Of a stretch of DNA of 23,568 nt, positions 1-18,597 are shown piece after piece (the first letter of the stretch is position 1; each line of letters starts with the position of its first letter). Below the pieces are notes generated by a model. The model was not told where the DNA came from. It was given only the letters and a program-made list of their open reading frames with translations, and made no database searches. Origin of the DNA: a virus; the IMG/VR virus record IMGVR_UViG_3300022916_000089, positions 1 to 23,568 of that record. One strand, written 5' to 3'. Position numbers and translations under genes: made by a program.

Positions 1-1062
1 GGTGTATGCAGTGGCTGTATCATCTGCAAAATCAGTCTCTACATTGCAGACATAAGGGATTCCACCGTTGATATTAAATCCATCCACCCACTTCCAAAGA
101 TTGCCATAGAAATTCTCAATTCCACGATAGCTCATATATGCGTCGTTGGTATTTCCACCTGTATTAGCAGTCGCGTTCCCATCTCCGTTTGATTTACCTG
201 ACACACCTATATAACTATCTTTGACCCAAGTACCACCGCTCAACTCCGTTCGTCCCATCCCGATAACATCCTGAGAATAGAACGAAGCGTACTCCACCAA
301 ATAAAGAAGCTGAATAGCACTCACCAAATAGAAGTCCTGCTGTCTCCAACCCGCACCTCTATTCAAAGCAATCGCTCTGAACTCAGCCCTCGTTTCATCC
401 ATCATTGGTGCTTTACCACTTACACTACCAAGTTTGTCGTTGCCAGTATCAATCGCCCCACCTGCCCAGTTATCAGCAGATCCGGTTCCACAGTCCACAT
501 AGGCAGTTGTGCCATTGTCGTATCCAATCCCCTCATAAGCACCAATGTACCTATGATCCACCCAGGCACCGTCTTTGTAGAACGCTGGATGCCATTCGTA
601 GCCAGGAAGTAACACACTTGATATGCTCCAGGAATGAACATTCGTAGCCGCCACATAAGAATATTTGTAGGCAAACTTTGGGATTTCAACCATTACAGAT
701 CCATCCCCACCTACAATGTCTGAAGCAGTCGAACAGTCTTCTTTCTTGGTTGAATCCGTAGCGCACAGGTAATAAACAACCTCACCGTCATCATCTAAAA
801 TGCACCGACGCATAGCCGCTTGGATAGGTAGAACTGCATTGCTGGGTGATGCAGCCGCCGGGAAAGCAGCCAAAGCTCCAGTGCGGGTTAAGGTTGGGCT
901 TGATTCACTTTCGTCCCATGTGACTCCATATTCTTGTGAGGCAGTTAAAATACCGCCTGTATAGGTATCACCCACATAGCTTGTATAACTCCCCGCCCCT
1001 GCCCACCACGCCGAGGCCACCACCATCAGTATTCCTAAAAGTATTGCGTATCGTTTTTTCAT
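1..1062 (-). CDS. C-type-lectin-like receptor-binding or surface protein with signal peptide, 3' end outside the window
   Basis: The frame opens at the ATG at 1062 (AGGAGGG 7 bases before it; ATGA overlap with the endonuclease gene) and has no stop down to base 1, giving 354 visible residues. Residues 1-23 form a Sec-type signal (MKKRYAILLGILMVVASAWWAGA, AGA cleavage site). Further on are EIPKFAYKYSYV, the ETRAEFRAIALNRGAGWRQQ and DFYLVSAIQLLYLVEYASFYSQ segments (about 223-262), and YMSYRGIENFYGNLWKWVDG (about 307-326). The last two are typical of the C-type lectin / formylglycine-enzyme-like fold used in phage receptor-binding proteins and in targets of diversity-generating retroelements. 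The C-terminal variable part, if any, lies outside. Its function is probably ligand binding. Confidence 0.78.
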   Translation of the reverse strand, partial: MKKRYAILLGILMVVASAWWAGAGSYTSYVGDTYTGGILTASQEYGVTWDESESSPTLTRTGALAAFPAAASPSNAVLPIQAAMRRCILDDDGEVVYYLCATDSTKKEDCSTASDIVGGDGSVMVEIPKFAYKYSYVAATNVHSWSISSVLLPGYEWHPAFYKDGAWVDHRYIGAYEGIGYDNGTTAYVDCGTGSADNWAGGAIDTGNDKLGSVSGKAPMMDETRAEFRAIALNRGAGWRQQDFYLVSAIQLLYLVEYASFYSQDVIGMGRTELSGGTWVKDSYIGVSGKSNGDGNATANTGGNTNDAYMSYRGIENFYGNLWKWVDGFNINGGIPYVCNVETDFADDTATAYT

Positions 1063-1700
1063 GTCGTACCCTCCTGAAGCTCATTTGAATACCATCTGTT
1101 TGTTTTATTGATTGGCTCTGTAATAGCTCTCTCTGGTGTCCACCCATAATTTAGGCGACTGTTAATTGTTTTAGGCTTGAACCCGCATATACGTTCCCAC
1201 TCAGCAACAGGGTGAGTTTCTCCATTGAAAGTAATATTGCGATTATTTGATTTGTTCAAAGACTGTTCTTTAGGAGTAGCCCATTTGCAATTTTCTGGCT
1301 TATAATCACCGTCATTGTTGGTGCGCTCTATGGAGTATTCACCACCAGGCTTTTCACCCATGTCGTCAAAGAAGTTGTTAAACGATTCAAGCCATCTATC
1401 ACAAACCGTTATTCCACGCCCTCCGTATCTGGGATACTTGGCATTATTCTCATTTTGGCAACGGTCTCTCATGGCACACCAAGTATGCCATTCAGGGGTA
1501 TCAACCATCCCGTGCTTGGTGAAAAACTCTGTTCGGTAGCATCCACAACTTGAGGTTGTCCCTCTTTCGATATTTGATGATTCTGCTATTTTCTCGTTTC
1601 CACAATCACATAGACACTTGAACTTCAATCTTCCAGAGTTCGTTCTTCCCGCCTCTTCCAAAACTGTCAATCTTCCGTATTTCTCGCCTGGTTTTATCAT
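1059..1700 (-). CDS. Homing-endonuclease-like protein (HNH/AP2-type phage family) with N-terminal zinc cysteines
   Basis: This is a 213-residue protein. I chose the ATG at 1700 because AGGAG lies 8 bases before it and the family usually begins G-E-x-Y/F-G-R-L-T-V; the frame is open to an ATG at 1829, adding 43 residues. Five cysteines (C29, C31, C33, C52, C54) fit a zinc ribbon. They are followed by WHTWCAMRDRCQN, YPRYGGRGITVCDRWLESF (90-107), DDMGEKPGGEYSIERTNNDG (112-131) and YKPENCKWATPKEQSLNK (133-150). This W-x-x-M-x-x-R-C, Y-G-G-R-G-I-x-V-C, D-M-G-x-x-P and N-C-x-W-A-T-x-x-x-Q series marks a family widespread in phages as free-standing HNH-like endonucleases. A DNA-binding helix (EWERICGFKPKTINSRLNYGW) ends the protein. 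The 139-base gap 1701-1839 holds no other supported gene. It probably entered as a selfish gene between two fibre genes. Confidence 0.82.
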   Translation of the reverse strand: MIKPGEKYGRLTVLEEAGRTNSGRLKFKCLCDCGNEKIAESSNIERGTTSSCGCYRTEFFTKHGMVDTPEWHTWCAMRDRCQNENNAKYPRYGGRGITVCDRWLESFNNFFDDMGEKPGGEYSIERTNNDGDYKPENCKWATPKEQSLNKSNNRNITFNGETHPVAEWERICGFKPKTINSRLNYGWTPERAITEPINKTNRWYSNELQEGTT

Positions 1701-1839
1701 CGCTTCATCTCCTGTAATGGCTCCTGAATGTTTTGTAATGGCAGAAAAGAAGTGTTCAGGAAAACACCTTTCGGGAGCTACCCTATTTCCTGCCAGATTG
1801 TCTATTTTATGTAACATATTCAATGGCATAAGTCAACCT

Positions 1840-4362
1840 CTAATTGATGTCAACACGTTCCATCATGAACGTAACATCCACGCTTGCAGAGTTCCATGTT
1901 CCCGTTCCATCGTCGTTCAAATCCACGGTCTGAGCAGCCGATGTAGAGAACATTTTATTGACTTGGACAACGGTTATTGAGCTTGCCGTGATTGCCTGGT
2001 CAACGAAGATGTCCGTTGCTCCATCGCTTGTGCCGAGAGAGAGTGTTCCAGTGTTCCCTGCGGTTTCCTCAAATATAACCCTGGTTAAGATGTACCCGGC
2101 AGGGATGATGTTTGCGTATGTCGTATCAGCGGTTACGGCAGCTTTGATGTATTTCTCTCGGTGTGTGGTGGGTAGGTTGGTGGGTAATGCTCCATCCACG
2201 TCCCCATTAAGCCCGTTACCGCTCCCATCAACCCACATCTTATGCCCCACCCCAGAATTTCCCAGGTCCAGAACGCAGCCGATTTGGTAAACCTTGAAAT
2301 TTTTGACTGCCACATAATCTGTGCTATTTCCGCTAATTGCTACAGTTGCTCCATCAGCAAGAGCCATATAACTATCTTTATTCTGTGCTGCTGAATCATC
2401 AAATACACCTTCCCACACAACAACTCCTGTATCCCAAGCATCTGGAGTTGGAGCTGTAATTGTTGTTGACGCATTAGTCGATGCAACACTTCCAGCATCT
2501 ACACCTAAACCGAACGCAATCCCATCAGCAAGAGCATTACCAGATGGGACATATAAATCACAAACAATTCTATATTTCTTACCTCGTTCTAATAATGCGC
2601 TATCAAAATCGGATATATAATGAGAATTTGTGGCGGTTCCATCAATTACAATTTTGGTGGAAAGTTCATTACCTGTTGTAGCATCATTAACTTGTGATTG
2701 GCTTGTTCTAACTATATTATCGAATACCCCAGAGTTTGCCGTCATAGCCTCATCATAAACAGCCGTCTGACTAGCCCCAGCATACTTAAACGGCACATCC
2801 CCGCCGTGGATGATGGCGTTGTCTGTGGCGTCTGTTGGGTCTAGGGCTAGGTTGAAGAGCTTGGTTGAGGCCACATTAACATTTAACCAATCTGATGGAG
2901 TCGCAGTAGCCATTTTTGCAGCTATAGCAAGATGATTCACAGAATTTGGAATAGCACCTCCAGATAATGCGACAGACGAATCTGCAAATCCGTCAATATA
3001 CAACTGAATATTACTTGCGTCCCATGTAAACCCTATAGTATGCCAACTACCATCATTAATGGCAATAGTCCCAGCTTGGTTTGGGCTTGATGTTCCATTC
3101 CATACTTCTACATAAGGTATTCCTGTAGCGCCAGCATAGGTTATCTCAAAAGATTCATGTTTTGAAAGAATACGTCCGTTGGCTGCATCAGATGTTTTCA
3201 TAGTTATTAATGCAGACATCTCTGTTGCACCATCAAGTATGGTCGTATCCCCAACCGTAACAACATCATCCACCCCATCAAACCAGTAGCTCGTCCCCTT
3301 GGCGTTCAGGTCGGCTATGGATTGGGAGTTGGTGAAATACGCACCGCTGACATCAATGGTATCGTCTGTGGTGTCGATAACAAGCCCACCAGTGGACGTT
3401 GTGGCAAGTTTGGCCTTATAGGTCGCTGTTCCGTCAGCATCGTTGTAGCTGATCCTTAGAGCCTCTGTGCCTGTGCCTTGATTTATTTCCAGCTTGGTGT
3501 CTGGGGCGGTTGTGGCTATGCCTACGTTGCCCGCGCTCTCGTCTTGTAAAACTAAAGGGTCTGTAGAAGCACCACCGAGAATGCCGGTGTTGATCTTCCC
3601 TCCAGCACTTGCCTCAAAATAAATTTTCCCGAAACTGCTACTATTATTAATTGCAAAATACTCGTTCCCACCACGCTTTGCGACAATACTCTTGCCACTA
3701 CCATCATTTGGTGAGTCAACAATGATACCCCTATCATTTCCATCGCCGCCAAAATCCACAATTAATACTGTACCAGATCCATTGGTACTGCTATTAACAT
3801 CTAACTTTGCCCCCGGCGCAGCAGTCCCAATCCCAATCCGTTCATTCGTAGTATCAACATTCAGCACCGGCGTTCCACCGTCAGCGTCCAGCACCTGCAC
3901 TGCGGTTGTGCTGTCACTCGCAGGCTGCACAACCAGCGTCCCGTCAATGTCCGTGTTATCCAGGTTCGCCGTGCCGTCTACCCACAGGTCTTTCCACTCT
4001 TTTGTGGTTGAGCCTAGGTCGTAGGTGTTGTCGACCGATGGCAATAGATCATACGCAAACGACCCACCCGCAACGATATTAACCAGCAACCACCGCTTAT
4101 TCCCGGCATTATCATCAGGCGAGATAATATCAGGACTTGACTCTCCTGCACCGCTCGATGCGTCCAGGCTGTAAAAGTACACATCCGTAGCCGAGATCAC
4201 TGTGGCACCATCCCCATCGGATAATTGATTCCCGTCGATAGCGTCCAGTTTCCCCGCAGTCCCCCCGGTGAGTCCCGTTGCCCCGAAAAACTTATTCGCA
4301 GCATCAACCCCGGAAGCCATCCCCAAAACTAAGCACAAAACCAAAAGTAATTTTTTCATCAT
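1840..4362 (-). CDS. Large fibre/adhesin-like protein with signal peptide, LamG-like domain and second jelly roll
   Basis: This is an 840-residue protein. Residues 1-21 form a textbook Sec signal peptide (MMKKLLLVLCLVLGMASGVDA), with a VDA cleavage site. Next are fibre-type pieces: YDLGSTTKEWKDLWVDG (about 112-128), RIGIGTAAPGAKLDV and NVGIATTAPDTKLEI. Residues about 352-515 look like a LamG/concanavalin-type sandwich (YWFDGVDDVVTVG, ILSKHESFEITY, DGSWHTIGFTWDASNIQLYI). Residues about 545-700 look like a second jelly roll (LERGKKYRIVCDLYVPSG, then FKVYQIGCVLDLG). The last 140 residues are beta-rich and unassigned. GGAGG precedes the start, which overlaps the previous stop as ATGA. G+C shifts sharply between its domains. 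A signal peptide on a fibre encoded in a tail operon is unusual; the segment could alternatively be a membrane anchor. Confidence 0.82.
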   Translation of the reverse strand: MMKKLLLVLCLVLGMASGVDAANKFFGATGLTGGTAGKLDAIDGNQLSDGDGATVISATDVYFYSLDASSGAGESSPDIISPDDNAGNKRWLLVNIVAGGSFAYDLLPSVDNTYDLGSTTKEWKDLWVDGTANLDNTDIDGTLVVQPASDSTTAVQVLDADGGTPVLNVDTTNERIGIGTAAPGAKLDVNSSTNGSGTVLIVDFGGDGNDRGIIVDSPNDGSGKSIVAKRGGNEYFAINNSSSFGKIYFEASAGGKINTGILGGASTDPLVLQDESAGNVGIATTAPDTKLEINQGTGTEALRISYNDADGTATYKAKLATTSTGGLVIDTTDDTIDVSGAYFTNSQSIADLNAKGTSYWFDGVDDVVTVGDTTILDGATEMSALITMKTSDAANGRILSKHESFEITYAGATGIPYVEVWNGTSSPNQAGTIAINDGSWHTIGFTWDASNIQLYIDGFADSSVALSGGAIPNSVNHLAIAAKMATATPSDWLNVNVASTKLFNLALDPTDATDNAIIHGGDVPFKYAGASQTAVYDEAMTANSGVFDNIVRTSQSQVNDATTGNELSTKIVIDGTATNSHYISDFDSALLERGKKYRIVCDLYVPSGNALADGIAFGLGVDAGSVASTNASTTITAPTPDAWDTGVVVWEGVFDDSAAQNKDSYMALADGATVAISGNSTDYVAVKNFKVYQIGCVLDLGNSGVGHKMWVDGSGNGLNGDVDGALPTNLPTTHREKYIKAAVTADTTYANIIPAGYILTRVIFEETAGNTGTLSLGTSDGATDIFVDQAITASSITVVQVNKMFSTSAAQTVDLNDDGTGTWNSASVDVTFMMERVDIN

Positions 4363-5218: not shown

Positions 5219-7366
5219 CTATATCCCTGAAAAATCAACCAAAGTCGCTGTCTTGGTTGAACCGCCTGCGGTTATTTTCATCATTATATCCCCGTCATCC
5301 CCCGCGCCCGTACCATCTGACATCCACATGATCCAAGCGCCCTCGGCAGGATTAGCCGGATCTGCTGAAAGTTCAGCGCCTCCAAAACCGGCAGCTGAAA
5401 CGGAAATTTCATCAACCGTCTCATCCCGGAAAATAAACCTCCCCTTTTCAGCACCGAGGCCGAGCCAGAAATCGTCCGTGACTTCCTGGTACCCAGTCAG
5501 GAAAAAATTGGTCCAAGGAGTTCCGGATTTTCCAAGCGAACAAGTGCCTAATTGGGGGTAAAAATCGCCATCTGAATTCAAAGTAACCCAAGCCTGATTT
5601 GCTGCATCTCTGGAATACATAGAGGCTTCATGCAACCCACTGACGCCTCTATTCACCAGCAATTCTGCATAATTAGTAGAAAGATTTGTGCCTGCACGCA
5701 TTAGAGCACCATCTTCACTGGCAAAAATTGCTACATAATCAAATTCTTTAATAGTTGTATTTATTGGATCATAGCCCACCCAAAAATATCTATCATCTGC
5801 TGTGGTTGGCCAAATGCACAACCCCAAAGCTTTGTCAGCGGCAGCTCCTATATTGAAATAAGTCCCAAATTTAAGCAATCCAGGGTTAGAATCGCTACTT
5901 GTAAAAGTAATATCCCCACCCGCATAAACATTCATACCACCGTATAGATCAAATGTTTCACCAGCAGCCATCTGTATAGATAGTGCCGCCCCCGACCACT
6001 TTATAAATGAACTGGCATCCCCAATATTAAACTTGTATGTCCCGCTATCATTCCCCAGCCAAAACCCGGCGTCCGTATCAGCATAAGTTGTTTTCCCGGT
6101 AGAATACACTGCTCCCGAAACAACCATATCCCCCGTTATACTGCCAGAGGTGGCTGTGATCGCTCCCGTAATCGTTGCCGATGTCGCAACCAGCGCCCCT
6201 GCGTTTGACACTCTAAAGGGAGCGGAACCGAAAGCGGTTGCACCAGTCCATATTCCCTCACCCGCTTTCATTTGGACCCTGGTTGCTCCTGTTCCAGCGT
6301 AAAAGCCTTCGGAGGTATCTGGGGTGAACCCAGCAAGTATGATTTGTGTATCTGACGCTTCAAAAATGACATCAGACCCGTTGTCGGCATAGACTTTCAT
6401 GCCGTACACCCCGGAAGATAATGAGCCGATCTCAATTCGCTTTTCCGCATTCTCATAGATAATAGCAGCAGCGTCAGCCCCAGACTTTAAAACAATACCA
6501 TCAGATGGACTTGATGATGGTGTTCCCGAAACCAGACTATACAAATAACCACTGATAACATCCCATCCCCCAATAGCACCGGAGGTCGCTGTAATAGCAC
6601 CCGATAACGTAGCGCTGGTGGCAATCAAATTCCCGCTCGCGTCAAGCTCAGAATTCGCCGCCTTCCACGTTATTTTTGTCCCATCAAAGTTCAAATACGC
6701 GTCGCTACCATCGCCCACATACGCCCTTGGATTCCCAGCGTTGTAGTCTAATTGAATCCCGTCATTCCCGAATGTTTGACTATTGATGGCGATTTGCTTG
6801 TCCGTAGCGTCAAGCCATAAGTTTGTATTGTGCAACTCAGTTGAAAGAACAGTCCATCCCCCGATAACCCCCGTTGTGGCTGTAATCTCTCCGGTGATTG
6901 TTGCCCCCGTTGCCGTCAGTACGCCCTCCTTCGTGACCCGAAAGGGTGCCGAGCCATAAGTCGCGTGGCCGATGGCAAGCCTGTAGGTGGCATCATCGGC
7001 ATCCATGGAAATAACGTCATTGCTGGTCGAACCGCCTAATCTGAACTTCGCATTGTCAAGGTCATATTCGCTACCCGCAGAGGCTCCCCAATTTATGGAT
7101 GTCAAAGTTCCGGTTATTATCTGATCCGCACTCCATACTGCTGGTTGATCCGCTCCGACATCCTCAACCCAAACCCCCACAGCATAGTCATCCGGTCTTA
7201 TATAATACGGGTGGTCGGTTGTATTCTCGGCTTCAGTGGAGGAACTGTCATAGATCATTTTACGGGTGTAACTATTGAGCCAAATGTAAGCAACATCACC
7301 ATTACTAATGGTTGCCTGACCAATTTTCGCTAGTGTGGTTGCAGTTCCAAGATGTATTACAGCCAT
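5219..7366 (-). CDS. Tail fibre protein with repeated beta modules
   Basis: This 715-residue, glycine/serine/threonine/alanine-rich protein has almost no long helices, as expected for a trimeric fibre or spike. It has three copies of a module: GSAPFRVTKEGVLTATGATITGEI (near residue 137), DASGNLIATSATLSGAITATSG (near 245) and GSAPFRVSNAGALVATSATITGAI (near 380). Two of the copies are followed by IGGW. Modules of this type occur in the C-terminal region of gpJ-like tail tip proteins and side fibres. The N-terminal region (NGDVAYIWLNSYTRKMIYDSS, about 1-90) may attach to the hub. The C-terminal region (GTCSLGKSGTPWTNFFLTGYQEV) carries the L-G-x-x-x-x-W-x-x-x-F/L-G fibre motif. It probably reaches the host surface. 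Start by TAATG overlap with the hub gene. Confidence 0.82.
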   Translation of the reverse strand: MAVIHLGTATTLAKIGQATISNGDVAYIWLNSYTRKMIYDSSSTEAENTTDHPYYIRPDDYAVGVWVEDVGADQPAVWSADQIITGTLTSINWGASAGSEYDLDNAKFRLGGSTSNDVISMDADDATYRLAIGHATYGSAPFRVTKEGVLTATGATITGEITATTGVIGGWTVLSTELHNTNLWLDATDKQIAINSQTFGNDGIQLDYNAGNPRAYVGDGSDAYLNFDGTKITWKAANSELDASGNLIATSATLSGAITATSGAIGGWDVISGYLYSLVSGTPSSSPSDGIVLKSGADAAAIIYENAEKRIEIGSLSSGVYGMKVYADNGSDVIFEASDTQIILAGFTPDTSEGFYAGTGATRVQMKAGEGIWTGATAFGSAPFRVSNAGALVATSATITGAITATSGSITGDMVVSGAVYSTGKTTYADTDAGFWLGNDSGTYKFNIGDASSFIKWSGAALSIQMAAGETFDLYGGMNVYAGGDITFTSSDSNPGLLKFGTYFNIGAAADKALGLCIWPTTADDRYFWVGYDPINTTIKEFDYVAIFASEDGALMRAGTNLSTNYAELLVNRGVSGLHEASMYSRDAANQAWVTLNSDGDFYPQLGTCSLGKSGTPWTNFFLTGYQEVTDDFWLGLGAEKGRFIFRDETVDEISVSAAGFGGAELSADPANPAEGAWIMWMSDGTGAGDDGDIMMKITAGGSTKTATLVDFSGI
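6137..6955 (-). repeat. Three interspersed module repeats in the tail fibre gene
   Basis: Related copies lie at about 6955-6866, 6650-6576 and 6239-6137. The first and last share the full GSAPFRV block plus the L-x-A-T-x-A-T-I-T-G-x-I-T-A-T strand; the middle copy keeps only the second half. They are diverged at the DNA level, which points to old duplication. Confidence 0.8.
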
Positions 7367-8970
7367 TATGCGATTACCCCCTCGCCTGATACTCCCACGA
7401 CATCATTTACCAGATCAAACTGTAACCGCCGCGCCCAGATATATGTTGACATGTCCGCCTGCATTTGCGTGTCCGTGAACGTGATCTTTTTTCCCGGATC
7501 TGGTAGGTTTGTTCCGATAGGCAGGTCGACACTCGCAGTATTTTTGTTTAGCACAATCAGGATATTGTCAATTGCTGTATCCACATTAGATATTGTATCG
7601 TGGTATGGGGTCACTGTGATTTCCGTCCCCCATGGAAGATCAGAATTAGAGACCACAACCTCCTGCGGGTAGTCTTTGATGTACCTCGCAGTCGTAACCT
7701 CATCGTCCAGGAACCCCACATATGCCTCTCGGTTCGTCCACGTCGCTGTGACCTGTTTCGTGGCATCGGCAGCGGAATATGAAGCGGTGAAATACTCAAA
7801 CTCATCCAGGGAGTCTGTCCCGTTGTCGAGCAACATGTCGCAAAGGTATAATTGATCGGCTTTGATATAAAAATAATGGGTAAAGAAGGCACACACATCG
7901 GATAGGAAATCAATTAGTGGCATCTGACTGGTTGCCCAGTGGCTGACGTCCGGAGAGGGCGCACGGTCCCCCGAATCGTCATAGGTATTAATCCCCAGCT
8001 GTGTGGTTCCCCAATCCATAATGTTGGTTAATGTCGTATCTGCACCCGTCCCTGATATGGTGACCTCACCGACGGGCGAATCTTTGAGCGAAAACGTACC
8101 ATCACCATTGGTGATTACATTGGATTGAATAGGTACACCATCGTCATATACGGCGAATGAGCCTTGAGTGAACGCGCTGGCACGTATGGGAAGAGTCTCG
8201 GAATTGTCGGTAGGAAATGACGTATCAATTACGAAATCAGCGCCGGATACCGACTCAATCGTCCACGCCCCATTAAAGTTGACAGATCCATTTATTGTTA
8301 TGGACGCCCCATTACTCCAACCGTGTGCCGCTGTGCAGGTCACTTTGGTTTTTGTGGATGATCTGGTGAAGCTTTCAACGGTCTTTGCATTCGTCCCGAT
8401 TCCCAATCCCCCCAAGTGATAGGTGGGCCGGCTACCCCCGTCATCCGGTAAACGTGTGGGGTTGACATGTGTGACTGATCCGAAGGCTCTCGGGGTAGCG
8501 ACCGTGTCTCCGTTGTAGTCGGTCACTTCATCAAGCAACTCCTGCGCGTATGTCGGCGCATAAAACGAATAGGATACACTCGTTGTATCGTAGCTTTCAA
8601 GATAGATGTTACCTTCGAATATTTTGATTGCCGCATCCTCAGTGGTTGCTGTCCAGTACACATTGACTTCGGCGTACTTTGGTGGTGGCCATGAACTTGA
8701 AAACGCATCAGGGGAGAAAGCAATACTCCCGAAACTCATTCGTACAAACCCGCCATGGTTCGTGGCTGTTTCGTAGCTTGGTGCTGAGAAACTGATTATC
8801 TCAGCATCCCAGTAATGATCAAACGCTTGGCCGTCCATTGACAAGTGTAGCGTCCCGGCATCGTCCACATCCCGGACGTATGTCTCACCATAGCCCTGCC
8901 AGACAACATCACCGTCACCATCGGACCATGTGACTGCCGCGCTGGGATTTAGTTCAACGAGGATAGCCAT
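7366..8970 (-). CDS. Putative tail tip / hub protein with an inserted FCCH-like beta domain
   Basis: This 534-residue protein follows the tape measure gene (TGATG overlap), where distal tail and hub proteins are encoded in siphoviruses. Residues 1-190 are beta-rich with FEGNIYLESYDTTSVSYSFYAPTYAQELLDE and RPTYHLGG. Residues about 196-262 resemble the E1_FCCH-type domain also found in the connector (AAHGWSNGASITINGSV, FNGAWTIESVSGADFVID). Residues about 330-480 contain MPLIDFLSDVCAFFTHYFYI then DQLYLCDMLL, a pattern like the central part of tail hub proteins. A hub/baseplate role is inferred mainly from gene order and this last segment. The stop overlaps the next start as TAATG. The alternative is a large distal tail protein. 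Confidence 0.72.
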   Translation of the reverse strand: MAILVELNPSAAVTWSDGDGDVVWQGYGETYVRDVDDAGTLHLSMDGQAFDHYWDAEIISFSAPSYETATNHGGFVRMSFGSIAFSPDAFSSSWPPPKYAEVNVYWTATTEDAAIKIFEGNIYLESYDTTSVSYSFYAPTYAQELLDEVTDYNGDTVATPRAFGSVTHVNPTRLPDDGGSRPTYHLGGLGIGTNAKTVESFTRSSTKTKVTCTAAHGWSNGASITINGSVNFNGAWTIESVSGADFVIDTSFPTDNSETLPIRASAFTQGSFAVYDDGVPIQSNVITNGDGTFSLKDSPVGEVTISGTGADTTLTNIMDWGTTQLGINTYDDSGDRAPSPDVSHWATSQMPLIDFLSDVCAFFTHYFYIKADQLYLCDMLLDNGTDSLDEFEYFTASYSAADATKQVTATWTNREAYVGFLDDEVTTARYIKDYPQEVVVSNSDLPWGTEITVTPYHDTISNVDTAIDNILIVLNKNTASVDLPIGTNLPDPGKKITFTDTQMQADMSTYIWARRLQFDLVNDVVGVSGEGVIA

Positions 8971-11900
8971 CAGTAGTATCTCCGCGTGTCGTCGGATCTG
9001 CCTCGTTTGTTCCGCATGACCACCACGTCATCGGCCCAAGCCTTGACTTCGCCTTCAAACTCACGACCGGCAATTTGAACGGTTAGGTTGATAGCTCCTT
9101 TCTGCGTGGACCCGCCGTTTGGAATAACCGTTGCTGGGTAGGACGATTTCGGGGAAACAATTAACTCATCGCCATGCAATGTCGCCAAATATCCGCTTTC
9201 AGGCCCATACGCCATCCCTCCCATTTCATAGCTAAGTCCAACTGAGCGAACTAAATTTTCAAATGCCTGCCCACCAATGGCCCATTCTGCCGGAGTGCTG
9301 AGGGTATCGTTTGTTCCATACTCGGCAATGCGGGAACCCAAATTGTATGAATTCTCCACACCAAAAAGAGTACCTAATTGAATTACCTGTTCTAAGATAG
9401 TTTTCTTGGTCGCTTCATCAGCTACAAGCGCAAGTGCGACTTTGGCATGTGCCCAATTCGCAATGTCTTCAATGCTGTAGTCTCCGCTGACAGCGAATTG
9501 GTAGAGTAAATTAACAGTCAGTGAGCGGGTTAGTGCGGCATCGGTTATCCCGAGGCCGGTGAGGTAAGCGTCAATGTCGTCTATAGGGAGAGCAGATGTT
9601 TCGTCTGGGTACAGCTCCATTATCATCTTGGCCATAATGTCCGGGATCTGAGCATCGGTTACCCCGATGTCTACCAGATAAGCCGCCATGTCGGATATGG
9701 GAATGGCGGACAACTCATCCTTGTACATTTCCATTATTAACTTGGACGTAATGTCCGGGATTGTTTCAACATCAAGCCCCATATCCGTTAGCCAAGCATC
9801 AAGATCACTAAGGGGTATTTCGGATAACTCATCAGGATACAGTTCCATTATTAGTTTCGCCGTAATGTCTGCAATTTCCAGATCGGTTAGCCCTATACCA
9901 TTCTCACCCAACCAGTATGCCACATTCGCTATCGGCACATTAGCAGCATCCATAAGATCCAAAATGAAATCAATTGTGATATCACTACCAGTTCCGTAAG
10001 TGTCAATAACTGCTTTCAGCATTGTCAGGACATCATTCGCATCCCCGTCAAACTCGGCCCAGTCGATAGTGAGGATTATATCGAGGGATCTGATCCGATC
10101 AATATATGCGTTTATCCCTGCGCTGAGAATGGCAAACTCATCGTTAATGGCCGTTAGGTCCACATTGACTTCAATGTTGCTTATGGCGTCTTCAATGGCC
10201 TCCAGCTCGGCAAGGATAGCCTCATCGTAACTTTGTGCCTCAGCTACCCCCTTCGCCGCCTCAAGATCAGACATAACCATTGCATATTTATTCTGGTATG
10301 CTTGTGACGATTTGAGATCCGCTTGTTGCTGGTCCAAATATGTGGATGCAAATGAAACAAACTTCTGATAATCATCCACATCCCCCGAGGCCAACGCAGC
10401 GGCTTTAAGCGCCTCATAGTCCCCCTGTGCCTGCGCTGCTTTTTCCTGGGGCAGACTGACATTCAGGGTACTGTATTTGATTGATTGGATAGTGCTTTCG
10501 ATCTGATCGACCAAACCGGCGAATGCCCGCGCAACGGTTAGTTGTTCGTTTAGGGCTTCCCGCTGACCGTTCAAATCCTCGCGATCGGAATTCGCCTTGT
10601 CCTGCGCTATCTTAGTTGCCTCTGCAACCGCCGCATTATACCAGGATTGCACATATGACGCGCCCTGGTAGAGCTTCTCCATCGCCCCTTCAAAATCAGC
10701 CGCCGCAATTAAATCCTCAACATCACTCTTGGCGCTGAGTATCTTCCCATAATAATAAGCGGTGTCACTCCCGCCCCCGGAGATGTATAATGTTTTGTCA
10801 ATCTGCTCTTGAATGGATTGTACGAGCTCCAAGATGGAATCCGCCAACCCCCGAAACCGCCAAGTGGCGTCTTTTGCAACTTCACCAGCATCATCGATGT
10901 TATCCACAAGCCAACCGATATCTTGCGCTATATCCCACCAATTAATACCCAATGCCTCAGCAACTGTCTTAAGTTCACTCAAATCCATCTCCGCAAAAGC
11001 ATCAATCATCTCCTGATAAGATAGGTCATATCCCCCATACCTTTCATCTATTTGAGCTTTACGGTCAAAACCATCCCCAAGGCCCATCTGATACTTCATA
11101 GTCTCAAGCGCCATTTCCTGTAGTGCAACGAAATCCTCCGATGCCGCGTTGACCTGCACCAACGCCTGCCACATGTCATAGAAGGTCGAAATAAGCGCAC
11201 TGACTGTCCCCTCAGTAGTTCCAACTTCAGAGTTAAGCGCCTTGACAGTGGTATTAATATTATCCCATACCTCAGCCTGCATAACTTCGGTCAAATTCTG
11301 TATTGCCTGGCTTAACAGTTCCGTTTTATCCCCGAGCTTCTCCACATCAATCCCGGCATCAACCATATCTTTCCATGTCAATTCAAACTGTGCAGTTAGT
11401 GACGCAACCCCCTCGTCAAGCAAGGTCACAGGGGAAGCTAACGCATCAAGATCACCCGCCAGCCCGGTGAAATATTTACCCCAAGAAACCGCAATAGCAG
11501 TAATTTCTTCTTCAGATACTTCTTCCCCAAGCGCTTCCAATGCACTGATGTGCGCCGCAGTTGCGGTAGTCGCCATCTGCATCGCTTTATCAAATACGGT
11601 AAATTCGGCAGTGGTTTCCCCCATTAAAACCTGGAATTTTTCGTACGCGACTGTGGCTAAATTCAGACTGTCCACCCCTTTGTTGAATGAGTTGGTGAAC
11701 GCAGTAATATCAGTGGACCACCCGGTAGGATCAAAAATATCTTTGATCTCCTGGGTCATAAGGTCAAAGATCGGCATCTGCTTAATGTTGCCTAATGCCT
11801 CCGCTATATAACCTGAAAATGCCTCTCCAAAAACAGACTTGAACGCTTCCGGGATCGTATTATAAATCCCGTCCCCAATCGGTGCACTGCCACCAGAGAG

Positions 11901-14618
11901 GAGCTGCCCAATGGTGTTAATGATATATTGGATCTCTTTTTCCGCACTGATATATTCACCTTCGAATGCTGCCAGCAATTCGCTATAAGTGACTCCTATG
12001 ATATCCGCTAACGCTTTGCCTGTTAGAGTCCCCGCTTTCACCGCTGACTCAAGTGCGTCCCGCTGTTCCGTATTAAGATCGCTAGGTAGGGCGTTTATAA
12101 ACGAGTCGGTGTATTCGATATATCGATTATCAAACAAACTCTCTACTCGACTCCATTCGTCGTCTGTAATCGTTCCGGCTGACCCTTGAGTGAAAAACGC
12201 TTCAATAGGTGCACCGTCAGACGCTTCCTGGGACACTGTAAGCATCAACTGATCCATGTCCCCCAAAGCAGTCTTAATCGCTTCCTGAGATGCTTCGGAC
12301 AGATTGGCAAAAAGAACATTATACATCTCGATTGATTTGCCTATTTCAACCGCTAACTCATTTGCGGTTTCCTCCGGGTTTGTCCATTCACCGTTATTTA
12401 CCCAACCGTCGAACATTTCCCCCTGAAGGAAACTACCGTCCTGACCCGGAGTTATATGTGTGCCCGTGTTTAATGTCGTGGCACCCCCCTTCATAAAATT
12501 ATTTCGAAACACCAACCCCAGTCCAATGATTGCAGCAATAGCAGCTGCCGCAATGCCACCCACTGCTGCCCCGGACATAGCCCCGGCACCAGAACCAGCA
12601 CCAACCCCGGCAGATCCAGCAATTCCGGACCCACCCGCACCACCTAACCCCATCCCGGCAAGGTGTCCTGCCGACCCAATCGCCGTACTACCGAGTGTGC
12701 CGGCACCCGATGACAGCATGGCAGCAAGCGTCTCAGCCGCGAAGTTATACACCTGCCCTATGAGACTCTTACCTGTGTAAAGCTCGTATCCTTTGGAACC
12801 GACGGATAAAATGCTCCCCAGATAATCCGTCCAACCGGACCCACCAGCACCCCCACTGACGCCAACCCCCGAGGATGAGCCACCACTAAATAGCCCGGAG
12901 AAAGAGGCGTTACCGTCCCCAACTCCGAAAATGTCAAACATCGCCGCCGCTGCCGCCCATTCAGCAAGCATACGCAACATGGCGTCTAACATGTCGTCGA
13001 ATGCATCCTCGATTGAATCAAATTGCCCTGTAAATACATCCTCAAAAACATCTGCGATACCATCTTCAACCCGGTTCATGGCCCGCATCCAAAGATCATA
13101 GGTCATGTCTGTGGTTTGCTTTGTGTCGATTTCTACTGCATCATTCGCGGCTTTTACTTTTTGGACAAACTGGTCAAGTGGCGTATCAATCATCCACAAC
13201 CCGAAGTAATCATCGCCGGGGTCTATATGTGACATCTCAGATATGGCTTCTAATGCCTTTTTTCGTATTTTTTCAAGGGCCTTTTCAAGTTGTTTCAACT
13301 CATTCTTAGTCAGCTTCTTGATCTTATCACCGACATCGACTACCCCTCCCCCTGTTTCTTCAAGCGCGTCAAAAAGCCCACTAAAGCCTAACCATGGATC
13401 GTCATGGTCCGTGATAACCGCCTTGGTTTCTATCAAACTCTGTTTGAGAGTGCCAAGTGCTGCGTGAAGTTTAAACACAGCATCATTCGTATTTGCGTTG
13501 GCTTCTGTGGTAGCTGCTAAGGCTTGGACAACATCATTGTAAGCACTCGTAGTCGCTACTAACTCCATCCGAATCTTTTTCTCTGACACCTCGCCCTGAT
13601 TCGCCCACAATTTGATCTTTTGTGCTTGTATTTCGATGGACAAGAATGCCTTCTTAGTTGTAAGCCACACCATTGAAACCGTGCGCATCTTTTCAATAAG
13701 GAACCCAATGGCAAGGATTGCTGTCTCCATGCCAGATGCAAAAGCGACAATTCCGTTTTTAGCAAAATCCATAAGCGCGACTTTGTTGTCTTTTATCGCA
13801 TCACCCCAAGAGATAAACACTTTTTCAAGGTTTAATAGTAACTCCACAAACACCTGATTTTTCGTAATGATAAAACCGATCTCTTCTTTGACATCTCCCA
13901 AAGCGTTCGCTGCCGCCTTCGTAGCACCGGAGAATGTATTTCTCATGGCCTCCGATACGCCACCGAACTGACTTTCCATTTCCTTCAATATGACGTTCTG
14001 GGCCTCCATTTGCTTTCCGGATTCCCACAACTGCTTGACCATATCCTTTTGATCTTTGGTAAACTGTACCCCGGCCCTGCTCATGGCAGAAAGATTAGCA
14101 ATGGGGTCATTCATAGCTTTGGCGATCATAACCATAGAGCTTTTCAAATCCTGACCCATAACCTCAGACATATCCAAAGCCACCTTTGTAGTCCGTTCGA
14201 AGGCTTCTTCTCTAACATTCTTAAATGTGGCGAGGATGGCCATCCCACCCAAAATGACCTCATCGCCAACGGTCGTTACTTGCTGCATCGCTGATGCCAT
14301 ATTTTTTAACTGGTCAATGTTATACCCAGCAGCTTGGCCCGTGGCCTTAATGACCGTTTCAAGGCGTTTTTCGGCATCCTCTTGAATCTTGGCAAGGGCA
14401 ATGGCTTCTCTGCCTACCTTCTGCATCTGATAGATGGCAACGGCAGCACCCGCAGCAGCAGCAACACCCATAACGGCAAAAGACTTTTTAAGCGTTGTTT
14501 CAATCTTCTTCCCAGCACGTTCAACTCTTTGTTGCGCCGTTAAAAGATCGGTTTTGAGTTTTTTTGTGTCTGCCCGTACTGAGGCATACACAGTGCCCGC
14601 GTTTAATCCTGCCATCAT
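8970..14618 (-). CDS. Tail length tape measure protein
   Basis: This 1,882-residue protein is the longest gene in the window and sets tail length. It begins with the usual helical part (DTKKLKTDLLTAQQRVERAGKKIETTLKKSF) and a hydrophobic alanine-rich segment (about residues 48-66). A TMP_2-like region follows with FKNVREEAFERTTKVALDMSEVMG, IAKAMNDPIANLSAMSRAGVQFT and MESQFGGVSEAMRNTFSG. A Gly/Ala-rich hydrophobic region with AAAAIAAIIGLGLVF lies near residues 600-705. Long helical stretches follow. The C-terminal third holds three 38-residue tandem repeats (about residues 1582-1695). The end has GGMAYGPESGYLATLHGDELIVSP, a common tape measure ending. At the usual 1.5 angstrom per residue the tail would be roughly 280 nm. 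No lysozyme or peptidase domain is evident. Confidence 0.95.
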   Translation of the reverse strand: MMAGLNAGTVYASVRADTKKLKTDLLTAQQRVERAGKKIETTLKKSFAVMGVAAAAGAAVAIYQMQKVGREAIALAKIQEDAEKRLETVIKATGQAAGYNIDQLKNMASAMQQVTTVGDEVILGGMAILATFKNVREEAFERTTKVALDMSEVMGQDLKSSMVMIAKAMNDPIANLSAMSRAGVQFTKDQKDMVKQLWESGKQMEAQNVILKEMESQFGGVSEAMRNTFSGATKAAANALGDVKEEIGFIITKNQVFVELLLNLEKVFISWGDAIKDNKVALMDFAKNGIVAFASGMETAILAIGFLIEKMRTVSMVWLTTKKAFLSIEIQAQKIKLWANQGEVSEKKIRMELVATTSAYNDVVQALAATTEANANTNDAVFKLHAALGTLKQSLIETKAVITDHDDPWLGFSGLFDALEETGGGVVDVGDKIKKLTKNELKQLEKALEKIRKKALEAISEMSHIDPGDDYFGLWMIDTPLDQFVQKVKAANDAVEIDTKQTTDMTYDLWMRAMNRVEDGIADVFEDVFTGQFDSIEDAFDDMLDAMLRMLAEWAAAAAMFDIFGVGDGNASFSGLFSGGSSSGVGVSGGAGGSGWTDYLGSILSVGSKGYELYTGKSLIGQVYNFAAETLAAMLSSGAGTLGSTAIGSAGHLAGMGLGGAGGSGIAGSAGVGAGSGAGAMSGAAVGGIAAAAIAAIIGLGLVFRNNFMKGGATTLNTGTHITPGQDGSFLQGEMFDGWVNNGEWTNPEETANELAVEIGKSIEMYNVLFANLSEASQEAIKTALGDMDQLMLTVSQEASDGAPIEAFFTQGSAGTITDDEWSRVESLFDNRYIEYTDSFINALPSDLNTEQRDALESAVKAGTLTGKALADIIGVTYSELLAAFEGEYISAEKEIQYIINTIGQLLSGGSAPIGDGIYNTIPEAFKSVFGEAFSGYIAEALGNIKQMPIFDLMTQEIKDIFDPTGWSTDITAFTNSFNKGVDSLNLATVAYEKFQVLMGETTAEFTVFDKAMQMATTATAAHISALEALGEEVSEEEITAIAVSWGKYFTGLAGDLDALASPVTLLDEGVASLTAQFELTWKDMVDAGIDVEKLGDKTELLSQAIQNLTEVMQAEVWDNINTTVKALNSEVGTTEGTVSALISTFYDMWQALVQVNAASEDFVALQEMALETMKYQMGLGDGFDRKAQIDERYGGYDLSYQEMIDAFAEMDLSELKTVAEALGINWWDIAQDIGWLVDNIDDAGEVAKDATWRFRGLADSILELVQSIQEQIDKTLYISGGGSDTAYYYGKILSAKSDVEDLIAAADFEGAMEKLYQGASYVQSWYNAAVAEATKIAQDKANSDREDLNGQREALNEQLTVARAFAGLVDQIESTIQSIKYSTLNVSLPQEKAAQAQGDYEALKAAALASGDVDDYQKFVSFASTYLDQQQADLKSSQAYQNKYAMVMSDLEAAKGVAEAQSYDEAILAELEAIEDAISNIEVNVDLTAINDEFAILSAGINAYIDRIRSLDIILTIDWAEFDGDANDVLTMLKAVIDTYGTGSDITIDFILDLMDAANVPIANVAYWLGENGIGLTDLEIADITAKLIMELYPDELSEIPLSDLDAWLTDMGLDVETIPDITSKLIMEMYKDELSAIPISDMAAYLVDIGVTDAQIPDIMAKMIMELYPDETSALPIDDIDAYLTGLGITDAALTRSLTVNLLYQFAVSGDYSIEDIANWAHAKVALALVADEATKKTILEQVIQLGTLFGVENSYNLGSRIAEYGTNDTLSTPAEWAIGGQAFENLVRSVGLSYEMGGMAYGPESGYLATLHGDELIVSPKSSYPATVIPNGGSTQKGAINLTVQIAGREFEGEVKAWADDVVVMRNKRGRSDDTRRYY
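9534..9875 (-). repeat. Three tandem 114-bp (38-residue) repeats inside the tape measure gene
   Basis: The units are 9875-9762, 9761-9648 and 9647-9534. The shared + strand landmark TCCATTAT starts at 9616, 9730 and 9844, exactly 114 bases apart. The protein unit begins I-x-D-I-T/M-A/S-K-L/M-I-M-E-L/M-Y and continues with DE, S-x-I/L-P-I/L-S/D-D and AYL or AWL, ending near a glycine. Weaker copies appear on both sides (around ITIDFILDLMDAANVPIANV and SLTVNLLYQFAVSGDYSIED). Confidence 0.92.
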
Positions 14619-15420: not shown

Positions 15421-15873
15421 TTAGACCATGACCATGCAGCCGCTCACTTTGCAAGTGAAAGACGTTTGCATCAGGCCAGACTTGTCCGCTGAAATGTCGT
15501 AGCTGGTTACATTGACATGAGACGGGAAAGTCTCATTGTTGGTGGAATCTGAAGCAGTCCACCAGGATGTGGTCTGGCAGGGCTCGTAATAGGACGTGTT
15601 GTCTATATACAAGCGCAGGGTTGTAATGTTCGTGTTGTCGAGGTTCGCGGATTTCAGTACATCCTGACCTGTGGTATCGGCGGGGTCGAACAGACCTGAA
15701 AAAGTTATCTGCCCACCGTCCTTGATACCGAACTTGAATGTCTTCCATTGATCGCCGAACTCGGTGTCTTCAAGCGAATCTGAGGTAATTCCGCTGAGGC
15801 TCCAGGTTCCCATGCCTACTACTGAGTTCGCGCCTATAGCGACTTTACAATCTTTACCTATTTTTGTTGCCAT
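15421..15873 (-). CDS. Major tail (tail tube) protein
   Basis: This 150-residue protein is the likely tail tube subunit. It has the typical small all-beta layout: opening KIGKDCKVAIGANSVVGMGTW, then LEDTEFGDQWKTFKFGIKDGG, then ITFSGLFDPADTTGQDVLKSA. The later strands include LRLYIDNTSYYEP and the closing SGLMQTSFTCKVSG. The D-G-G-x-I-T-F-x-G-x-F-D-P-A-D-T/x-Q pattern is common in siphovirus tail tube proteins. The strongest ribosome site in the window (AAAGGAGGG, 5 bases before ATG) fits a protein made in many copies. It is followed by the tail assembly chaperone genes, the expected order. Three cysteines are present, two near the C-terminus, which is unusual for a tube protein but not impossible. 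Confidence 0.87.
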   Translation of the reverse strand: MATKIGKDCKVAIGANSVVGMGTWSLSGITSDSLEDTEFGDQWKTFKFGIKDGGQITFSGLFDPADTTGQDVLKSANLDNTNITTLRLYIDNTSYYEPCQTTSWWTASDSTNNETFPSHVNVTSYDISADKSGLMQTSFTCKVSGCMVMV

Positions 15874-15959: not shown

Positions 15960-16118
15960 TTATTTTTTCTTAATTTTGTCCCACTTTATGGTCTCATTCA
16001 CATTGACTGTGGAGATGCCACCTTTAAAGCAGTTTACAACTATATTGCCGACCTTGCCAGTCACCAGAAACTCCTTAATGACCTTCATGGTTTCCATAAA
16101 CGGCGTGTCGTTTTTCAT
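15960..16118 (-). CDS. 52-residue protein, possibly DUF2292/YezD-like
   Basis: This small gene codes for 52 residues and begins inside the stop of the preceding glycosyltransferase gene (TAATG), with GGGGAG upstream. The protein has a helical start (ETMKVIKEFLVTG), then a predicted beta hairpin, KVGNIVVNCFKGGISTVNVN, and ends ETIKWDKIKKK. The layout of a short helix, G-x-I/V-x-V strand, G-G turn, I-x-x-V-x-V-x-E-x-I strand resembles small DUF2292/YezD-type proteins, whose function is unknown to me. That family link is by pattern only and is weak. It is the last gene before the intrinsic terminator, so it closes the glycosyltransferase cassette. Confidence 0.65.
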   Translation of the reverse strand: MKNDTPFMETMKVIKEFLVTGKVGNIVVNCFKGGISTVNVNETIKWDKIKKK

Positions 16119-17440
16119 TAGTGTTCACTCCCCGGTAGAAACAACGAATCTTGATCCTGTTCATCATAATCCGTGTAACACTCAGTAGCCTCATGATATC
16201 CCATGCGGTTTAGCTTCTTGTATAGCTCATACGTTTCGCGCTTCACCTCGTATGTGACCAGATGGCCGATCTCCATGGACGTATCAACATATATTTGATA
16301 CCCGGCATTGCGGACCTTCCAACAAAGACCGATGTCTTCTCCGACCGTCTTGCCATCAATGCCTTTGCGGATCTCGTACCACGGAGTCGGGATGTCGAGG
16401 AAGATATCAGTCGAATACATGACTGCCCCGCAGCCTGTCGCATCCACTTCTATCATGTCACCGGAATAACATTCCTTATCCGGGACGTGCTGATACTTGC
16501 CCAGCTTGCCGCGATAAAGCAGAGGATCGAAGGGTGGCCAACTCCTATGAACCGGAGTACCCACCATCTTATATCCGTCCACCGCATGTTGCAGCATCTT
16601 CGTGACAGTATCCGGTGGGTATAGCTGATCCGTGTCCAGCATCAATACATGGGAATATGACCCGTACATACCCATCGACTGGCTGATAAGATCGTTCCGA
16701 ATTCCGGCAATGTTGGTCGCCATGCGTCCGACTGAGAAACGCGGCATAAGCAGGGTAAAATCCGGCTTTTCCATTGCCAGAAAGCTGACCATAAACTGAA
16801 CACTGACATTATCGTTAATCAAGGGGAACGCGATGGCCAGGGTCGGCCCTACCCGGTCAAGTTTCCTTTGCCGGTAGAGCCGCTGATCCGGCACCACCAT
16901 TTCCCGATCATACACCCGCGTGTAGTCCTTATCCATCAGCGCCCTGTCCGTGTGTGGGTGGTGGTGGGTAATCGTTGCGATGGGACAGTGGATATACCGG
17001 CCAAGTTCGATACATCGTTCTGTGAGTTCCACATCGCAACGGGTGTGCTTATAACCTGTGTGGAAAAAAGTCCCGTCCAGAAACGGCAGGAGCTTTTTGT
17101 GCACCATCCAATGGGTGGCCACATCAGTTCCGTCGTGGTGCTGATCGTTTAACCCAATCATTCCCCAGTTATCCGGGAAGGTCTGCATGGCATCGAGTGC
17201 GTTCTTCAGACAGTCCGGTTCAACTGTGGTATCATCACCAAGAAACACCACGATTTCATGTTTCGCTTTGGCCACCAATTTTTGGATCATCTTGGGTGCG
17301 CCGATCCGTTCGTGGTCCTCTTCAGTTACAATCTCAAACTGACTATCCGGCAACCCCCCATTTTTGTAAATTGATGCGATGCACCGCTTCGCTTTCTCCG
17401 GTCTGATCACCGGAATGGTGATACTGATTTTCTCTCCCAT
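16118..17440 (-). CDS. Glycosyltransferase with two tandem GT-A domains
   Basis: This 440-residue protein contains two glycosyltransferase-like halves. Residues 1 to about 195 open with ISITIPVIRPEKAKRCIASI and carry EIVVFLGDDTTVEPDCL (D69/D70). Residues about 200-440 open with LAIAFPLINDNVSVQFMVSF and carry YSHVLMLDTDQLYPPDTV (D269-T-D271). The second half also has VGEDIGLCWKVRNAGYQIYVD (366-386), the ED plus H pattern (H393) typical of GT2 catalytic acceptor sites. I prefer the ATG at 17440, preceded by GGGAG, over the GTG at 17464, which overlaps the previous stop by four bases. There are no membrane segments. The two halves may act in sequence on one glycan. The stop overlaps the next start as TAATG. 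Confidence 0.85.
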   Translation of the reverse strand: MGEKISITIPVIRPEKAKRCIASIYKNGGLPDSQFEIVTEEDHERIGAPKMIQKLVAKAKHEIVVFLGDDTTVEPDCLKNALDAMQTFPDNWGMIGLNDQHHDGTDVATHWMVHKKLLPFLDGTFFHTGYKHTRCDVELTERCIELGRYIHCPIATITHHHPHTDRALMDKDYTRVYDREMVVPDQRLYRQRKLDRVGPTLAIAFPLINDNVSVQFMVSFLAMEKPDFTLLMPRFSVGRMATNIAGIRNDLISQSMGMYGSYSHVLMLDTDQLYPPDTVTKMLQHAVDGYKMVGTPVHRSWPPFDPLLYRGKLGKYQHVPDKECYSGDMIEVDATGCGAVMYSTDIFLDIPTPWYEIRKGIDGKTVGEDIGLCWKVRNAGYQIYVDTSMEIGHLVTYEVKRETYELYKKLNRMGYHEATECYTDYDEQDQDSLFLPGSEH

Positions 17441-17452
17441 TTTATTCTCCCG
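17434..17452 (-). repeat. Duplicated 19-base translation-initiation leader, copy 2
   Basis: This is the exact second copy of the 19-base leader at 17763-17781. It contains the ribosome site and ATG (17440) of the two-domain glycosyltransferase. Its presence is the main reason for choosing 17440 as the start instead of the GTG eight codons earlier. Confidence 0.8.
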
Positions 17453-17460
17453 AATAAATG

Positions 17461-17769
17461 TCACTTTAGCTTTTCGGCTATAAACGCAAGAACCTGACTT
17501 TCACATTCATGCGGTTCACAGTCAGAAACCATGTCGAGTTCTAAACACATAGTCTCAAAATCTGCATGAGATATACTGATCGACTTAATGAATCCCTCTA
17601 TTTTCGGGGATGCTGTTTTGAGTGGGTCAAGAAACACCTTATCCAATTCATCACGCACAACCCCAACACCACTATCATATAATTTTTCCAACCTCGCAAC
17701 ATGCACGGTCCGCGAGCCAACATCAACAAATTCATTTTCAACATACAACTTTAAAGTAAAAGCTCCCAT
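17461..17769 (-). CDS. Hypothetical protein of the glycosyltransferase cassette
   Basis: This is a 102-residue protein I do not recognise. It opens with a beta strand (FTLKLYVENEFVDVGSRTVHV). An acidic, mostly helical part follows, and the end contains MVSDCEPHECESQVLAFIAEKL with two cysteines and a histidine. No membrane or signal segment is visible. The ribosome site and start (a 19-base stretch at 17763-17781) are identical to those of the following glycosyltransferase gene. It lies one base after the GT2 stop and ends in contact with the next gene, so it is surely co-translated with the two glycosyltransferases. A role as an accessory or acceptor protein for them is only a guess from position. 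Confidence 0.65.
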   Translation of the reverse strand: MGAFTLKLYVENEFVDVGSRTVHVARLEKLYDSGVGVVRDELDKVFLDPLKTASPKIEGFIKSISISHADFETMCLELDMVSDCEPHECESQVLAFIAEKLK

Positions 17770-17781
17770 TTTATTCTCCCG
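17763..17781 (-). repeat. Duplicated 19-base translation-initiation leader, copy 1
   Basis: Read on the minus strand, the sequence CGGGAGAATAAAATGGGAG surrounds the start codon of the 102-residue gene. An exact second copy lies at 17434-17452 around the start of the two-domain glycosyltransferase. The stretch contains the Shine-Dalgarno GGGAG, an AT-rich spacer and the first codons. The fusion glycosyltransferase at 19730 and the zinc-ribbon gene at 18597 also use CGGGAG ribosome sites. Confidence 0.8.
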
Positions 17782-18433
17782 TAATATCTGGCTTCAAATA
17801 TTTCTCCTGTTGCAAGTATCTCTCTCCGTCCCACCCCTCAATCTGCTGGCAAACCATGCCATTGATCTTGATACACCGCTTCCCCACTGCGCCTGCAAAA
17901 AAATATCCCTTCGGCACCTTCTCCGCATATTCAAAGAAATCACTTGCACGGGTTACGAACATCCCCACGCTGACCGTAATATCGCCAATCTCGTGTTCCC
18001 CTGAAATCGTTGGGACGGTCTTTACGTTTATTGGTGTTAATACCTGCCGGACTCCCCCGCGCTTCAAGGACACAACCCCGACATTCTCTTCCCGTTCCAG
18101 CACCTCGATCATGGTTGACAACCAGAGGTGCGGCACCTCCATATCGTTATCAAGCTGGACGATGTAATCGGGATTATCGGCTATCTTCGCTCCGGCAATA
18201 ATACCACCCCACCCTCCGAGGTTCTCCGGTAAGTGCAACGGTTTGACTTTTGAGAAATAATCGCTCGATTTGGATGTGACCCAATCAAGCCATTCCTTAG
18301 TCCCATCAGTCGAATTGTTGTTGACTATGATATGTTCATATGGGAAATGCGTATTTTGCCGAACTGAATTTACACAACGAGTTAGGTATTCTAGTCGGTT
18401 GAATGCCGGAGTGATAATGGCGGTCCTTTTCAC
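17771..18433 (-). CDS. GT2 family glycosyltransferase
   Basis: This 220-residue protein consists of a single GT-A fold. The family signature is clear: TAIITPAFNRLEYLTRCVNSV at the N-terminus, YEHIIVNNNSTDGTKEWL (residues 32-49), LPENLGGWGGIIAGAKIA (68-85), then YIVQLDNDMEV with D95-N96-D97 as the DxD-type metal/nucleotide-sugar site. The later part (FFAGAVGKRCIKINGMVCQQIEG) probably forms the acceptor side. There are no membrane segments, so it is likely a soluble enzyme using an activated sugar donor. The start is GTG, which shares four bases with the stop of the zinc-ribbon gene. Donor and acceptor cannot be told from sequence. At 220 residues it is a minimal member of the family. Confidence 0.9.
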   Translation of the reverse strand: MKRTAIITPAFNRLEYLTRCVNSVRQNTHFPYEHIIVNNNSTDGTKEWLDWVTSKSSDYFSKVKPLHLPENLGGWGGIIAGAKIADNPDYIVQLDNDMEVPHLWLSTMIEVLEREENVGVVSLKRGGVRQVLTPINVKTVPTISGEHEIGDITVSVGMFVTRASDFFEYAEKVPKGYFFAGAVGKRCIKINGMVCQQIEGWDGERYLQQEKYLKPDITGE

Positions 18434-18597
18434 TTTTCATCCCCGGTATATTTTCCGCACATCGGACAATGGCACACGGCACACTCAATCAACACCTGAT
18501 CTGATTCCGTGTCTATCGCATTGAAAACAACAAACTGAGCACCGCAGTGTGGGCATGTGATGTCGTGCAGGTCATGTGTGATAGATAATTTTATCAT
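18430..18597 (-). CDS. 55-residue zinc-ribbon protein
   Basis: This is a short gene coding for 55 residues, overlapping the fusion enzyme upstream by one base (TGATG) and the GT2 gene downstream by four (GTGA). GGGAG sits 8 bases before the ATG. It has two cysteine clusters: CPHCG at residues 15-19, and CAVCHCPMCGK at 39-49, which holds C39, C42, C44 and C47. C15/C18 with C44/C47 or C39/C42 would make a four-ligand zinc ribbon. The middle part (AQFVVFNAIDTESDQVLIE) would be the connecting beta hairpin. Such mini zinc ribbons are common in phages and their roles are mostly unknown. The tight coupling on both sides argues that it is a real gene of the cassette. Confidence 0.75.
   Translation of the reverse strand: MIKLSITHDLHDITCPHCGAQFVVFNAIDTESDQVLIECAVCHCPMCGKYTGDEK

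Follow-up and report, generated by a model that had tools for sequence, protein, structure and literature searches.

Why should two proteins encoded among the tail genes of a phage begin like secreted ones? The question arises from the window, a 23,568-base IMG/VR virus record whose genes lie on the minus strand. The contig carries genes for a tape measure, a major tail protein and neck proteins, and its sequence identifies it as a tailed-phage fragment. The gene order runs from head-tail adaptor and neck genes through the major tail protein, tail assembly chaperone and tape measure to a 715-aa fibre-like protein, a LamG protein, an HNH endonuclease and a lectin-like protein (Table 1), so that the LamG and lectin genes sit within the tail operon. 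We give an even chance to the reading that both are Sec/signal-peptidase-I (SPI) substrates, and that the LamG protein and the lectin are exported as non-virion binders and not built into the tail in the cytoplasm.

Other features of the window are recorded here as observations. The HNH gene may be a mobile insertion into a two-gene signal-bearing cassette. Three glycosyltransferase-like genes lie between the major tail protein and neck genes: 16118-17464, with GT2 Pfam matches above the cut-off; 17771-18433, GT2-like on reading alone; and 18597-19730, with weak matches below the cut-off. At the corresponding place, the related record L011 has a 615-aa ORF. The head-tail adaptor (20844-22052) is extended at its C-terminus by about 250 residues, and part of this extension matches the major tail protein family phrog_584.

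Table 1. Features of the window discussed in the text
Feature	Position	Strand	Basis
C-type-lectin protein, DGR-target family, predicted Sec signal	1..1062	(-)	phrog_5302 E 2.4e-66; signal score; family alignment
Predicted signal-peptide codons, lectin, up to AGA/G site	988..1062	(-)	Shine-Dalgarno; signal score
HNH endonuclease gene between LamG and lectin genes	1059..1829	(-)	phrog_374 E 3.2e-68
LamG fibre-like protein, 840 aa, predicted Sec signal residues 1-21	1840..4362	(-)	Laminin_G_3; signal score; Shine-Dalgarno
Predicted signal-peptide codons, LamG protein	4300..4362	(-)	signal score; codon comparison with L030
715-aa fibre-like protein without signal, candidate virion fibre	5219..7366	(-)	phrog_22201 tail fiber E 1.1e-8
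Tape measure protein	8970..14618	(-)	phrog_27166 E 2.9e-36
Major tail protein	15421..15873	(-)	phrog_1407 E 8.1e-8

Predicted signals on the LamG and lectin proteins

The preliminary description had read well-formed Sec-type signals on both proteins and proposed signal prediction on the two N-termini. For this we used a rule-based Sec/SPI scorer, written for this analysis and calibrated on three segments of E. coli K-12 MG1655. At a score of 7 or more it accepted 11/11 SPI substrates, 3/7 lipoproteins, 4/21 inner-membrane and 0/89 cytosolic proteins, the classes being assigned by us from gene names and the cut-off picked after this table had been seen; by itself the scorer cannot tell whether an N-terminus is cleaved off as a signal or stays as an anchor. 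Both proteins passed, the LamG protein at 8.8 and the lectin at 8.6, and the remaining 18 window ORFs tested scored at most 5.4. Each has a basic n-region, a hydrophobic core and an A-x-A-like site at the real start codon. The 19-residue hydrophobicity maxima were 1.93 and 1.89 at the N-termini, compared with 1.39 and 1.24 elsewhere in the proteins. Shuffles of their own first 44-45 residues reached 8.5 in 0.12% and 0.02% of cases for the two proteins, which together with the E. coli controls rules out chance as the source of the signals.

The LamG protein begins MMKKLLLVLCLVLGMASGVDA/ANKFFG, with the predicted cleavage at the slash, and its Laminin_G_3 match lies much further on (residues 362-511, E 2.7e-11). 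The lectin begins MKKRYAILLGILMVVASA/WWAGA/GSYTS, with two candidate cleavage points, so that its site is ambiguous between ASA/W and AGA/G. Downstream translation starts, which the earlier description had raised as a challenge to its proposal, were not supported. The LamG gene has a strong Shine-Dalgarno sequence, GGAGG, 7 nt ahead of the second ATG, and its start overlaps the stop codon of an upstream 238-aa gene, for which a search for relatives found no locus. The lectin gene has an equally placed strong site, AGGAGG, 7 nt ahead of its ATG, and overlaps the HNH stop at its start. Furthermore, 14 of the 21 LamG signal codons differ from those of L030, a relative of the LamG N-domain, and only five residues change (nine synonymous and five nonsynonymous differences); the segment therefore looks translated and kept. 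Shine-Dalgarno sites, overlapping stops and this codon comparison rule out wrong start sites. Among other relatives of the LamG N-domain, SPI-like signals were found in L031 and L125 and lipoboxes in L128 and L129, while L126/L127, L130 and L131 are signal-less. Searches of cultured phages with the LamG protein, and with its N-domain, returned short matches only.

Signals and variable repeats in the lectin family

The window end cuts the lectin ORF before the variable repeat, leaving 354 aa visible, which align to a DGR-target family. Modelling the window lectin itself gave a poor result (pLDDT 51.6), so we turned to the signal-bearing relative L035 (pLDDT 91.9), whose modelled fold matches TaqVP, TvpA and Mtd. 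The closest solved fold is TaqVP, a DGR variable protein and target of Thermus aquaticus (PDB 5vf4; Z 26.8 over 267 residues, 20% identity), from a strain with a DGR reverse transcriptase in prophage 2 (PMC4605624). TvpA matched at Z 13.5 and Mtd at Z about 11. The L035 model and its match to TaqVP support a C-type-lectin fold for the family.

Lectin relatives end in a DGR-type variable repeat. A template repeat follows in 52 distinct relatives, with mismatches almost exclusively adenine-directed, and 11 signal-bearing relatives have one (L026, L028, L029, L036, L039, L043, L049, L078, L086, L090 and L099). A reverse transcriptase (RVT_1) was matched in the records of 21 of the 47 relatives searched. 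None is annotated in the 23.6-kb window, itself a fragment, and the closest kin, L008-L011, have neither template repeat nor reverse transcriptase in the available sequence. Since the repeat of the window phage would fall past the contig end and its closest kin show none, we infer its DGR from the more distant family. One and the same lectin gene (L099, L100) turns up both in a MAG labelled Bacteroidales and in one labelled Geobacteraceae; probably at least one of them is misbinned. Searches of genomes from the phyla of two MAGs gave few matches and no new signal-bearing member.

Signals were predicted in 16 of 76 distinct complete lectin relatives, leaving 60 without. Fifteen of these score at least 7, and L036 was included manually, as its signal starts from an internal ATG that the scan did not cover. 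Starts were scanned across the first 40 codons in relatives and background ORFs alike, and 66 of 853 other ORFs passed (Fisher p 0.0005 against 16/76). The excess of signals among lectin relatives is real but moderate. On a tree of lectin-domain sequences only, built by a quick method, signal state changes 11 times, and well-supported branches force at least four of these changes. In the window's clade, five of six members have a signal. The closest kin of the window lectin, L008, has a lectin without one. In L039 and L043, the signal-bearing N-termini could be uncleaved anchors.

Almost all of the relatives predicted to carry a signal come from viral contigs, and several lie within capsid or tail operons. 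For example, their records carry genes for a portal (L009), protease and capsid (L011), tail assembly and central fibre (L035), tape measure (L087, L094), tail fibre (L043) and endolysin (L090); some other records are short contigs that are taken as phage on the strength of their IMG/VR listing. Signals also cluster with one another: among genes at most two places away they were found in 14 of 53 beside signal-bearing lectins and 3 of 186 beside signal-less ones, in a post hoc comparison designed after the gene maps had been viewed and including related loci that are not independent. After the lectin gene in L009 (7492-7947), L010 (7280-7765) and L011 (7542-7997), all close relatives of the window lectin, are three similar signal-bearing proteins of 151-161 aa. 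Pfam searches with ten signal-bearing neighbours and relatives named nothing but LamG and S74 in L005.

Two points thus go beyond the preliminary description: the second protein is in a DGR-target family, and the signal pattern recurs in other phages. Benler 2018, a survey of phage DGRs, describes phage DGR proteins as being without detectable signal peptides and takes this as support for their phage origin (PMC6199706). The signals predicted here in 16 distinct relatives contradict that claim. None of the six annotated lectin genes checked in cultured phages has a signal. The literature searched, which included few subscription papers, yielded no report of signal-bearing phage DGR lectins.

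Glutamine at +1 and the case for export

In 11 loci, Gln directly follows an A- or G-ending site (L005, L028, L029, L062, L078, L080, L082, L087, L090, L094 and L099), amounting to about eight distinct loci because L028/L029, L078/L080 and L082/L090 are near-copies; the set was chosen by its Gln, so the count is no test in itself, and in L078 the scorer placed its preferred site further on. In Bacteroidetes, Gln at +1 is found in most SPase I substrates (PMC5837995), from which we infer Bacteroidetes hosts for these phages. Shine-Dalgarno use is lower in these loci (27% vs 55%, p 0.0016, genes pooled), an independent sign of Bacteroidetes-type host adaptation. Phage genes with host-adapted Sec signals have a counterpart in the Q-rule genes of Porphyromonas gingivalis phages (Kauffman 2023, PMC10367356); those differ in being, in the part of that paper describing them, five genes of unknown function with no lectin or DGR link.

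The preliminary description had offered hydrophobic anchors in the tail as an alternative. In this kind of reading, the hydrophobic N-termini are not export signals and are retained on the protein, serving virion assembly or contact with a membrane. Fibre-like proteins do normally join virions in the cytoplasm, and our scorer accepts some inner-membrane anchors too (4/21). However, a hydrophobic segment confined to virions has no reason to track the peptidase preference of a host, so the peptidase-type sites with Gln at +1 in one set of phages favour real export signals, as predicted from sequence. The lipobox versions of the LamG N-domain also weaken the idea of a tail anchor, as does the L035 model, in which an N-terminal helix stands outside the fold and is followed by a low-confidence linker. 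We consider a retained virion element improbable. Predicted export, in turn, is well supported by the recurrence of signals in relatives, the +1 Gln and a LamG signal kept under codon turnover.

Possible sites of action

The overlapping starts and stops and the capsid and tail operon settings suggest late expression. Both proteins would be made alongside the late tail genes, and the LamG fibre-like protein and the C-type lectin would pass to the host envelope via Sec and signal peptidase I, with cleavage and final location as predicted steps. Since its relatives are hypermutated by a DGR, an exported lectin would probably be a fast-changing binder. It could occupy surface or envelope glycans and receptors, its presumed ligands, late in infection and in the lysate, acting as an adhesin, receptor mask or decoy. 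The adhesin or receptor-masking role first proposed for this locus fits this scheme. Several points count against this reading: no outer-membrane or surface anchor was recognised that would account for a place on the surface, the lectins of L008 and of most relatives (60 of 76) have no signal, and neither do the cultured-phage lectins checked.

The main rival to non-virion binders is that the proteins are exported, fold in the periplasm and dock on virions at or after lysis, as receptor-binding proteins assembled outside the cytoplasm. The lectin domain is the one also found in signal-less phage tail proteins, and the genes are located in structural operons. A Cys pair, as would suit an oxidising compartment, is more frequent among signal-bearing members (5/17 vs 1/49 signal-less), but this was spotted before it was tested and is confounded by clade, and the enrichment fits either non-virion export or docking after export. 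No tail-attachment domain was recognised behind the signals of signal-bearing members, and Mtd_N-like motifs are found solely in signal-less members, though in just three or four of these. We know of no precedent for phage receptor-binding proteins assembled outside the cytoplasm after export. The window also carries a separate signal-less fibre-like protein, which we count in favour of a non-virion role for the exported pair. We favour non-virion binders and regard docking as unlikely.

Mtd of Bordetella phage BPP-1 is likewise a phage C-type-lectin DGR target; it differs in being a tail-fibre protein that binds the receptor from the virion (PMC6199706), and its Mtd_N domain appears here in some signal-less relatives only. 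The Legionella variable lipoprotein and Treponema TvpA are surface-displayed, exported C-type-lectin DGR targets (PMC6199706), but they are encoded by bacteria and not within phage structural operons. A further reading is lysogenic conversion, with the proteins exported from a lysogen and displayed on its surface as bacterial DGR targets are. According to Roux 2021, bacterial DGR targets often carry signals or TM segments (PMC8144416), and the link between genotype and phenotype would be kept in a lysogen. However, the starts in the window overlap neighbouring stops inside a tail operon, and other loci are in capsid and tail operons; of the readings weighed, this one appears the least probable.

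In these phages, variable lectins may leave the infected cell by export, besides being built into virions. More broadly, and tentatively, at somewhat below an even chance, a late module in some tailed phages would secrete a hypermutating lectin and partner proteins to the envelope of the host and the lysate, and phage DGRs would diversify non-virion binders as well as fibres. The site of action of these proteins can now be tested directly. If export is real, the presence of a signal peptide is no guide to whether a DGR target is cellular or belongs to a phage, and phage DGRs have a second purpose.
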